This document shows positions 54,733 through 61,955 of a DNA stretch of 64,000 bases, in pieces. The translations under genes were made by a program, and so were the position numbers. The DNA is from Thermoanaerobacterium sp. RBIITD (GTDB lineage: Bacteria; Bacillota; Thermoanaerobacteria; Thermoanaerobacterales; Thermoanaerobacteraceae): NCBI RefSeq assembly GCF_900205865.1, contig NZ_LT906662.1, forward strand, positions 3,113,411 to 3,177,410, given 5' to 3'. Each line of letters begins with the position of its first letter. Position 1 is the stretch's first letter. Below the pieces are notes generated by a model, which ran no database searches, was not told the origin of the DNA, and saw nothing but the letters and a program-made list of their open reading frames with translations.

Positions 54733-54789
54733 TTATAATTGTAAAATAAATGTTTATTTGCTATAATATTTATGAAAGGAAGTGTTACA

Positions 54790-57679: not shown

Positions 57680-57902
57680 TGATATGGACTTTGAGAAAAA
57701 TATGGACAAACTTGAAGATATAGTAAAAAAGCTCGAAAAAGGGAATTTACCATTGGAAGAATCTTTTAAACTTTTTAAAGAAGGACTACAGCTGTCTCAA
57801 AAATTAAACGAATTATTAAATAATATTGAAGGAAAAATAACAATGCTTGTCAATGGTGATGATAAGGTTCCCTTTAAAATTGAGGAGGACAAAGATGTTT
57901 GA
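57672..57902 (+). CDS. xseB: exodeoxyribonuclease VII small subunit
   Basis: 76 aa, ATG 57672 after GAGGTGG, overlapping xseA by 8 bases. FEKNMDKLEDIVKKLEKGNLPLEESFKLFKEG is the family signature, followed by a helical end. Several copies bind one XseA. The last 8 bases overlap ispA. Confidence 0.93.
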   Translation: MNDDMDFEKNMDKLEDIVKKLEKGNLPLEESFKLFKEGLQLSQKLNELLNNIEGKITMLVNGDDKVPFKIEEDKDV

Positions 57903-58776
57903 AGATGTACTAAAGGAAAAAATAGAATATGTTAATGAAGGATTAAAGAAATATCTTGATACAGATGAAAAGCCTGAAGTACTATATGATGCCATGAGGT
58001 ATAGCGTATTTGCCGGTGGGAAAAGAATTCGCCCCATTTTATGTCTATCAGCATGTGAACTTATGGGTGGTAATAGAGAAGATGCTTTGCCTATAGCATG
58101 TGCGATTGAATTTATTCATACATATTCACTTATTCATGATGACTTACCAGCTATGGATAATGATGATTTAAGGCGTGGAAAACCTACAAACCATAAGGTA
58201 TATGGTGAAGCAATTGCAATACTTGCAGGTGATGCCCTTTTAAATTATGGATTTGAAGTTTTAATACAATACGCTTTAAACTCGAACTTATATACTAAAA
58301 TTTTAAAAGCAACAAATGAGATAGCTAAAGCTGCTGGTTGTCACGGAATGGTAGGTGGTCAAGTTATTGATCTTCTTTCAGAAAACAAAACAATAAGTAA
58401 AGACGAACTTAAATTTATGCATGATTATAAAACAGGCGCCTTAATAAAAGCAGCTGTTTGTTCAGGCGCTATTGTTGGTGGCGCTGACGATAAAACAGTA
58501 GAAAAATTAAGAAAATATGCTGATTATTTGGGTCTCGCTTTTCAAATCAAAGACGACCTTCTAGATGTTTTAGGTGATGAAAAAAAGCTTGGAAAAAATA
58601 TAAAAAGCGATGTGGAAAATGGAAAATCAACATTTGTTAGTATATTTGGCATAGAGCGTTCAACTGCTCTTGTCAGCGAATTGACTGAAAGTGCTAATGA
58701 GATATTAAACGAATTCGGAAGTAGAGGAGAATTTTTAAAAAGCCTCACAAATTATTTGGCAGAACGAGAAAACTAA
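57895..58776 (+). CDS. ispA: farnesyl/geranylgeranyl diphosphate synthase (polyprenyl synthetase)
   Basis: 293 aa, ATG 57895 behind GAGGAGG. Aspartate motifs: HDDLPAMDNDDLRRGKPT (first Asp-rich motif, near 82-99) and IKDDLLDVLGD (second, near 217-227). Adds isopentenyl diphosphate to allylic primers, giving C15 or C20 chains for quinones and wall carriers. Sits before OLE RNA, oapA and dxs, as in other OLE-bearing clostridia. Confidence 0.94.
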   Translation: MFEDVLKEKIEYVNEGLKKYLDTDEKPEVLYDAMRYSVFAGGKRIRPILCLSACELMGGNREDALPIACAIEFIHTYSLIHDDLPAMDNDDLRRGKPTNHKVYGEAIAILAGDALLNYGFEVLIQYALNSNLYTKILKATNEIAKAAGCHGMVGGQVIDLLSENKTISKDELKFMHDYKTGALIKAAVCSGAIVGGADDKTVEKLRKYADYLGLAFQIKDDLLDVLGDEKKLGKNIKSDVENGKSTFVSIFGIERSTALVSELTESANEILNEFGSRGEFLKSLTNYLAEREN

Positions 58777-58869: not shown

Positions 58870-58898
58870 TTGATAGTATTATTTAAAAATGTTATAAT
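58870..58898 (+). promoter_or_regulatory. sigma-A promoter for OLE RNA
   Basis: TTGATA (58870-58875), 17 bases, TATAAT (58893-58898). Transcription would begin near 58905, where the structured RNA starts. Confidence 0.65.
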
Positions 58899-58904
58899 CA
58901 ATAT

Positions 58905-59480
58905 CAATACGAAGTGGTGCAGTATCCTAGTCAGGACTGGTAATTCTGAAGACGGGCCTAAAAATCCGTTAAAGGCATATCGATGAAGTTCCTGGTGCAG
59001 GCTTTCGATGCCCAATCGAGGGCTTGTGCTGGGAGTTAAGAAAAGAGGGGCGATCTACAATGGCATGTAGGCGTTGACCCCCTTTTCGTGGAGACCTATT
59101 CCCGTGGCATTATGCTACGGCATAGGGTGAACCTACCTTGCGGTAATAAAGCTGTGGGTAGTGTAGCCTGCCTTGAGTGATTTAGGTGGTTATCAGACTA
59201 AACTTTAACTTAATGAGCTCTTAAGTTAAAGCTATTGCTGATGAAACCTTGATTGCAAAAGAGGATAGGAATTAGCAGACTGTCGAGGAAAGCTCCTAGG
59301 CTGTTCGATAGAGGCATATTGAGGATTACAGTGTGGACTAAGTGGTAATCCAGTCATACTATTGGCGACAAGGTAAATTCAGGTTTAAAGGGAAACCGCC
59401 GAATGGCGACATTCGGTGCCTGAATGGGAAACCCTGCTGGACCTAAGCCACAAAATTTACTCAATATGCTGCCACTTCTC
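58905..59480 (+). ncRNA. ole: OLE RNA (Ornate, Large, Extremophilic)
   Basis: About 575 bases with no convincing protein frame, clearly richer in G and C than the flanks, with many local hairpins, for example CGTGGCA/TGCTACG (59103-59109 with 59113-59119) and TCGAT/ATCGA (59005-59009 with 59015-59019). Place and partner identify it: it follows ispA and is followed directly by an oapA-like gene and dxs, the known OLE neighbourhood. OLE forms a membrane-bound RNP with OapA and is linked to cold, alcohol, Mg2+ and energy stress in Bacillus halodurans. Ends are approximate. Confidence 0.85.
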
Positions 59481-59501
59481 TACATAGGAGGACCCTTTTT
59501 G

Positions 59502-60080
59502 ATGAAATCAAGGAGTTTAAATATTAATTATAAATGGCTTGTTAATGCTTCTATTTTTAGCTTCATATTAGCTGTTGTTTTAAATTTTTCATCAGATATA
59601 TTATTAAAAAAAAGCAATATTATAATTGCTTTTTTTGTGTTATTATTAATAGTATTTACTGGTATATTATTTGATATAATTGGTATAGCTGTAGCGACTG
59701 GAAACGAAGAACCTTTTCATTCGATGGCAGCTAATAAAGTTCTAGGTGCGAAACAATCAATAAGACTTATTAGAAATGCCAATATTGTGACTAATTTTTG
59801 TAACGATATTGTTGGTGATATATGTGGAATAGTATCTGGTGCTGCTCTTACAAGTATAATTTTAAAATTATCAATAACAGGTACTAAAAGTACTATATAT
59901 ACAACAATTTTTGGTGGAATATTATCAGCAATAACGATTGGTGGCAAAGCAATTGGGAAAAGTTTTGGAATTTATAAAAGCCAGTCAATAGTGTATTGGG
60001 TTGGCATATTTCTTGCTTGGATAGAAAAAAATATCGGTATAAACATATTTCCAGACAGAAGGAATAAAAATAGAAAGTGA
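59502..60080 (+). CDS. oapA: OLE-associated membrane protein OapA
   Basis: 192 aa. ATG 59502 follows AGGAGG (59486-59491); an ATG at 59424 lies in the OLE RNA and is rejected. About four membrane helices with a conserved centre near 62-105 (FDIIGIAVATGNEEPFHSMA and KVLGAKQSIRLIRNANIVTN), basic segments that contact RNA in this family. The protein anchors OLE RNA at the membrane. Ends just before dxs. Confidence 0.88.
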   Translation: MKSRSLNINYKWLVNASIFSFILAVVLNFSSDILLKKSNIIIAFFVLLLIVFTGILFDIIGIAVATGNEEPFHSMAANKVLGAKQSIRLIRNANIVTNFCNDIVGDICGIVSGAALTSIILKLSITGTKSTIYTTIFGGILSAITIGGKAIGKSFGIYKSQSIVYWVGIFLAWIEKNIGINIFPDRRNKNRK

Positions 60081-60089
60081 GTGGGCTAC

Positions 60090-61955
60090 ATGCTCGAAAA
60101 AATTAATTCACCTTACGACATAAAAAAATTAAATACTAATGAACTTGAATTGTTATCAGAGGAGATTCGTTCATTTTTAATAAATCATATTTCAAAAACA
60201 GGAGGACATCTTGCGTCAAATCTCGGTGTCGTTGAACTTACCATCGCTTTACATTATGTTTTTAATTCACCTATTGACAAGATCATTTGGGATGTGGGCC
60301 ATCAAAGTTACGTACATAAGATTTTAACAGGGCGTCGCGATTTGTTTGATAAACTCAGAAAATTTAATGGACTATCCGGATTTCCCAAGAGAAAAGAAAG
60401 TGTTCATGATATATTTGAAACTGGTCATAGTAGTACATCAATATCAGCTGCATTGGGCATTGCAAAGGCGAGAGATTTAAATAATGAAAAATATTCAGTT
60501 ATATCCGTCATTGGTGATGGTGCACTTACAGGTGGAATGGCATTTGAAGCTTTAAATGATGCAGGAAGATCAAAAACAAATTTAATTGTTATACTTAATC
60601 ATAATGAAATGTCAATATCAAAAAATGTAGGAAGCCTTTCATTATACTTAAGTAAATTAAGGACAGACCCTGGATATTTTAGACTAAAAAAGGATTTAGA
60701 AAATGTTTTAAATATAATACCGCCAATTGGGAAAAGTATCTACAAATCTATAGAAAAAATCAAAGATTCTATTAAGCAGTTAATTGTTCCTGGAATGATA
60801 TTTGAAGAAATGGGATTTAAATATCTTGGCCCAATTGACGGACATGATATAGATTCATTAATCGATGTATTTACGAGAGCAAAGAAAATTACCGGTCCGA
60901 TATTTATCCACATCATAACAAAAAAAGGAAAAGGGTATAAATACGCTGAAAATAATCCTGATAAATTTCATTCGGCGTCACCGTTTAATATTGCGACAGG
61001 CGAATTTAAAAAAAACGGACGTGATACTTATTCGGATGTGTTTGGGAAAACTCTTACAGACCTAGCCTTGAAAGACCCTAAAATTGTTGCCATAACAGCA
61101 GCAATGCCTGATGGTACAGGATTAAATCATTTTGCGGAAAAGATACCTGAGCGATTTTATGATGTAGGAATAGCCGAACAGCATGCAGTAACATTTGCAG
61201 CCGGGATGGCAGTTAACGGATATAAACCATATTTTGCAGTATATTCAACATTCTTACAAAGGGCTTTTGACCAAGTAATACATGATATATGTATACAAAA
61301 TCTACCAGTAGTTTTAGGTATTGATAGAGCAGGCATTGTTGGTGAAGATGGTGAAACACATCAAGGAATATTTGATATATCTTATTTAAGAATGATACCA
61401 AACATGATAATTATGGCACCTAAGGATGCAAATGAGCTTGTAGAAATGATTAAATTATCTACCAAGATTAAAGGACCATGTGCAATAAGATACCCGAAAG
61501 GAAAAGTCGACGAATACGATAGAAATAGAAGTTGTAACTTTGATATTGGTAATGCTGAAGTTTTAAGTGAGGGCAATAATGTAGTTATTTTTGCACTTGG
61601 CAGGATGGTTAATACAGCAATGAAAGCAAAGTATGAGCTTGAAAAGTATTCAATTTTTCCTTATGTTATTAATTTGAGATTTGCAAAACCACTAGACATT
61701 AATTTGATACTTGATATTTCAAGAAAAGTAGACTATATATTTACAATCGAAGATAATGTTATTTCAGGTGGCATAGGTAGCGGCATTTTAGAATTGCTAA
61801 ATGAAAATGGAATATATAAAAAGGTAGTAAGAATAGGCTTTCCAGATAAATTCATTGAACACGGTGATGTAGATTCCTTATTTAAAAAGTACAAACTTGA
61901 TAGCAATTCCTTGGTTAAATATGTAATAGAAGTATGTGGTGATGCTAAATCATGA
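60090..61955 (+). CDS. dxs: 1-deoxy-D-xylulose-5-phosphate synthase
   Basis: 621 aa from ATG 60090 (an upstream GTG at 60081 has no better site). Thiamine-diphosphate enzyme: GDGALTGGMAFEALNDAG (near 149-166) and NHNEMSIS, the second domain with DVGIAEQHAVTFAAGMA (near 364) and DRAGIVGEDGETHQGIFD (near 412). First step of the MEP pathway, whose products feed IspA upstream. Confidence 0.96.
   Translation: MLEKINSPYDIKKLNTNELELLSEEIRSFLINHISKTGGHLASNLGVVELTIALHYVFNSPIDKIIWDVGHQSYVHKILTGRRDLFDKLRKFNGLSGFPKRKESVHDIFETGHSSTSISAALGIAKARDLNNEKYSVISVIGDGALTGGMAFEALNDAGRSKTNLIVILNHNEMSISKNVGSLSLYLSKLRTDPGYFRLKKDLENVLNIIPPIGKSIYKSIEKIKDSIKQLIVPGMIFEEMGFKYLGPIDGHDIDSLIDVFTRAKKITGPIFIHIITKKGKGYKYAENNPDKFHSASPFNIATGEFKKNGRDTYSDVFGKTLTDLALKDPKIVAITAAMPDGTGLNHFAEKIPERFYDVGIAEQHAVTFAAGMAVNGYKPYFAVYSTFLQRAFDQVIHDICIQNLPVVLGIDRAGIVGEDGETHQGIFDISYLRMIPNMIIMAPKDANELVEMIKLSTKIKGPCAIRYPKGKVDEYDRNRSCNFDIGNAEVLSEGNNVVIFALGRMVNTAMKAKYELEKYSIFPYVINLRFAKPLDINLILDISRKVDYIFTIEDNVISGGIGSGILELLNENGIYKKVVRIGFPDKFIEHGDVDSLFKKYKLDSNSLVKYVIEVCGDAKS

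Follow-up and report, generated by a model that had tools for sequence, protein, structure and literature searches.

OLE is among the largest structured RNAs of bacteria, and its biochemical activity is unknown. An earlier note claimed that a 64,000-nucleotide stretch of the genome of Thermoanaerobacterium sp. RBIITD (the window) carries a complete OLE RNA, followed by the gene for the protein OapA, and that this RNA has a promoter of its own. Is this OLE intact, and is it transcribed on its own or along with the operon upstream? The locus includes these features:

57895..58776, + strand: ispA (farnesyl diphosphate synthase), upstream of OLE; PF00348, E = 1.6e-64; NCBIfam NF045485, 381 bits vs. 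a cut-off of 275
58870..58898, + strand: OLE promoter, with -35 TTGATA at 58870-58875, a 17-nt spacer, TG at 58890-58891, and TATAAT at 58893-58898; identified by an 11/12 match to consensus and by conservation
58905..58907, + strand: predicted transcription start, from promoter geometry (7-9 nt past the -10)
58898..59491, + strand: OLE RNA, full-length type (Rfam RF01071); model positions 1-616 of 616, not truncated
59486..59491, + strand: Shine-Dalgarno sequence of oapA (AGGAGG), covering the last nucleotides of the OLE match; from sequence
59502..60080, + strand: oapA, encoding the 192-aa membrane protein OapA; homologous to the ORFs that immediately follow OLE at the loci checked
60093..61955, + strand: dxs, downstream of oapA; TIGR00204, 854 bits vs. 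a cut-off of 466

The RNA is complete, as claimed. A covariance search, which the note had suggested as a check, matched RF01071 from end to end and far above the gathering score (536.6 bits vs. 50, E = 3.2e-155). This was the sole Rfam match at the gathering score when the whole 64-kb window was scanned, and OLE is single-copy in the genome (3.40 Mb, in a single contig). At 46% G+C, it stands out from the window (31%). All regions of the model were aligned, including the 3' hairpin with its GGCGAC loop. P7-P9 and P13 are kept, which indicates the full-length class rather than variant 1 or 2; this assignment follows the alignment to the model rather than a stem-by-stem numbering on the published diagram. 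We found no structural features in this RNA that lie outside the range of the family. In other words, it is an ordinary, complete member of a known family.

OLE is also widespread among the relatives of this bacterium. It is present in 19 of 20 genomes from the same taxonomic family (the one without it is a fragmented assembly); across the same phylum, 289 of the 398 sampled genomes have it. No OLE signature was found in viral contigs.

The promoter is harder to establish. By itself, a plain scan of this AT-rich DNA for consensus promoters gives no significant result (6 found vs. 6.4 expected). Because a bare scan cannot beat chance in such DNA, we tested conservation. An alignment of eight loci from the genus shows an invariant -35 block and a nearly invariant extended -10 (TG-T-TATAAT, 58890-58898), while the spacer and the sequence upstream vary. 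Beyond the family, we analyzed 66 OLE loci sampled from the phylum, leaving out the class Bacilli; a perfect TGnTATAAT lies no more than 90 nt ahead of the conserved RNA start, GUGGUGCAGUAU, in 48 of them (shuffled sequences: mean 0.79, maximum 4), and the full pattern TTGN3-N16-18-TGnTATAAT lies just upstream in 44 (shuffled: mean 0.05, maximum 1). Removing ten near-duplicate loci leaves 38/56 and 34/56, respectively. The motif is also concentrated near the RNA: the adjacent 70 nt contain the -10 motif in 66 of 85 loci, vs. 4 of 425 blocks from further upstream. These counts show selection on the OLE promoter in families that are far apart. The claim of a good sigma-A promoter after ispA held up by conservation, and most of the relatives checked share the promoter.

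In the window, GUGGUGCAGUAU begins at 58914, and the 5' end that the note had predicted near 58905 is consistent with the position of the -10. Across loci, the conserved RNA start lies anywhere from 13 to 76 nt past the -10. The OLE leader thus has no fixed length, and this variability suggests that it may be dispensable. A promoter of this type also precedes rnpB in the genome (TTGACA-17-TATAAT, with a TG-extended -10). We consider it likely that OLE and oapA (with dxs) form a transcription unit, that a near-consensus, TG-extended sigma-A promoter 13 to 76 nt away is general to OLE loci across the phylum, that the leader lies outside the functional RNA, and that the OLE unit, like rnpB, is built for high constitutive output.

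The window contains just three promoters of the OLE type (TTGN3-N16-18-TGnTATAAT). Of the other two, at 54739-54767 and 43141, the former directly precedes the ORF at 54772, with which the operon that leads toward nusB and ispA probably begins.

A promoter does not rule out transcription from upstream. The note's suggestion that OLE is transcribed independently of the nusB-ispA operon was only partly borne out: OLE has its own promoter, but no standard terminator separates it from ispA. On the plus strand of the ispA-OLE gap, we found neither a standard terminator nor a convincing hairpin, and the gap folds barely better than shuffled sequences (z = -1.4). According to PMC9723947 (which cites Ko and Altman 2007), the OLE gene of Halalkalibacterium halodurans is embedded in a large operon and also has its own promoter. 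Given the promoter, the lack of a terminator, and this double mode in H. halodurans, independence from the upstream operon is only partly shown, and both modes may be active in the window. The missing terminator, the weak folding, and the large operon of H. halodurans would all fit an alternative, that OLE derives mainly from read-through of asp23-nusB-folD-xseAB-ispA and is excised by processing, with a local promoter that is weak or silent. We think this is improbable, because the local promoter is near-consensus, is conserved in the genus, and recurs in distant families.

Downstream of OLE, the note's identification of OapA was correct, as were the coordinates it gave for the locus. The start codon of oapA lies 10 nt past the AGGAGG, and the ORF in tandem with OLE (59502-60080) is homologous to 37 proteins that are encoded directly after OLE elsewhere. 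We could orient 86 OLE loci, and in 85 of them the RNA is directly followed by an ORF of at least 120 aa; the remaining locus (L071) has one as well, with a frame that extends beyond the DNA that was examined. The 37 OLE-linked proteins are 33-77% identical to the window's OapA (33-70% for homologs outside the genus), and the alignment of all 38 proteins has 13 invariant columns. The closest named relatives are from T. butyriciformans and T. saccharolyticum (78-79% identity).

By itself, the window's OapA has no significant match in Pfam or NCBIfam, and no curated model covers it. Like known OapA proteins, it is encoded after OLE, has about 190 amino acids and several hydrophobic helices, and shares the invariant residues of the OLE-linked homologs; the weak similarity to the CNNM transmembrane domain (PF01595) is a property of the family, as it was detected for 26 of the 38 aligned members (best E = 1.8e-6) and not for the window's protein. 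This agrees with the published relationship between OapA and MpfA (PMC11332333): many OapA proteins remotely resemble the transmembrane domain of MpfA/CorC-type CNNM transporters, although OapA is too short to contain the CBS and HlyC/CorC domains of MpfA. For the window's OapA, AlphaFold gave an unusable model (mean pLDDT of 44) when run on an alignment of four sequences.

Across OLE loci, a TTG codon with a good ribosome-binding site was often picked as the start of oapA, and in the window, a TTG directly precedes the ATG (59499-59504). Frequent TTG starts could keep the output of OapA low.

Could OLE mainly be a 5' leader that regulates oapA and dxs, instead of a free-standing RNA? The ribosome-binding site of oapA coincides with the 3' end of the OLE match, and oapA is followed by dxs in 80 of the 86 loci, as this idea would have it. 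But the OLE of H. halodurans accumulates as a discrete RNA of about 630 nt that ranks with the most abundant transcripts and has OapA, OapB, and OapC as binding partners (PMC9723947), and the size and conservation of OLE go beyond what a leader would need. We consider a mainly regulatory leader very unlikely.

The plus strand of the OLE-oapA gap contains no standard terminator, and just 6 candidate terminators were found in this gap among the 54 other loci with a measurable gap. Because there is no recognized terminator between OLE and oapA, the mature 3' end of OLE is expected to be made by processing.

The note also suggested searching the rest of the genome for oapB and oapC, and both were found:

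L030 6425-6703: OapB candidate, 92 aa, between map and infA; matches the solved OapB 7k9b over residues 8-89 (E = 2.6e-12)
L031 3042-3287: OapC/YbxF, an 81-aa L7Ae-like protein, between rpoC and rpsL; matches 3v7e and YbxF 4lck (E = 3e-13)

The OapB candidate was located via synteny and then confirmed by comparison to 7k9b; the KOW model from Pfam does not match it. The best matches of the OapC/YbxF candidate in the PDB are the bacterial L7Ae-like protein 3v7e and YbxF itself. A second L7Ae protein, adjoining nusA, resembles YlxQ. The genome also encodes bS21, which has been proposed as a further partner in the OLE ribonucleoprotein (PMC12054373). No CNNM protein (PF01595) was found in this genome, while 12 of 14 control genomes have one. 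This absence is expected from the reported anticorrelation of MpfA and OLE (PMC11332333). The locus thus comes with the full set of known OLE partners, in a moderate thermophile without a detected CNNM transporter. That this OLE is a degraded or non-functional copy is extremely unlikely: nothing favors it except that a few pairs in the alignment to the model are non-standard, and against it are the high full-length score, the intact promoter and oapA, the encoded partner proteins, and the retention of OLE in every genome of the genus except for one fragmented assembly.

We are confident that the window contains a canonical full-length OLE gene, read from a strong sigma-A-type promoter of its own whose -10 is extended, and probably also by read-through from the ispA operon. 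In H. halodurans, OLE dimerizes, associates with the membrane via OapA, and switches shape when OapC binds, and the ribonucleoprotein helps the cell maintain metal homeostasis and adapt to cold, alcohol, Mg2+, and poor carbon sources (PMC12265935, PMC10898510, PMC9723947). Nothing in this locus contradicts this mechanism. The transcript of the window's OLE would continue into oapA, and probably into dxs, past no recognized terminator, and OLE would then be cut free (as reported for H. halodurans). The RNA would dimerize and join OapA at the membrane, together with the further partners OapB and OapC/YbxF, and the complex would tune the homeostasis of divalent metals and the stress or energy state of the cell. 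The metal and stress function is carried over from the genetics of a single model species, H. halodurans, which is alkaliphilic and is grown at 37 °C.

The OLE-oapA locus is already-known biology and not a new kind of system. The window's OLE resembles the full-length OLE of H. halodurans in its full match to the covariance model, its tandem oapA, its isoprenoid-gene neighbors (ispA and dxs), its own promoter, and having OapB and OapC encoded elsewhere. Set against H. halodurans, the window's OLE is predicted to have a leader of just about 8 nt ahead of GUGGUGCAGUAU, and its host is a thermophilic anaerobe. The modest new element is that the promoter of OLE recurs across the phylum at a variable distance from the RNA's start. 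In the available literature, we found no statement of this recurrence; an OLE promoter was known for H. halodurans.

As the note had supposed, the setting is thermophilic. Thermoanaerobacterium makes alcohols, so the published role of OLE in alcohol tolerance could be tested there. Strain RBIITD was isolated at 55 °C and has a genome of 3.4 Mbp (PMC5764936). The OLE of a thermophile may lend itself to structural studies of the unresolved second domain.

A few loci have unusual arrangements downstream of OLE. On the reverse strand of L099 (genome G379), OapA and Dxs form a single uninterrupted frame of 835 residues. This fusion is absent from the four other genomes of the same family, and a single-base indel at a tight or overlapping junction would suffice to create it, so an error in sequencing or assembly is possible. 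An unclassified genome from the Clostridia has a lower-scoring OLE (L004 2402-2984, 335 bits), with an adjoining OapA that is 45-49% identical to the window's, and the ORF after that oapA is not dxs. At six loci (L040, L051, L052, L055, L059, and L095), oapA is present and the downstream DNA that was examined has no dxs motif; these may be alternative neighborhoods for OLE.
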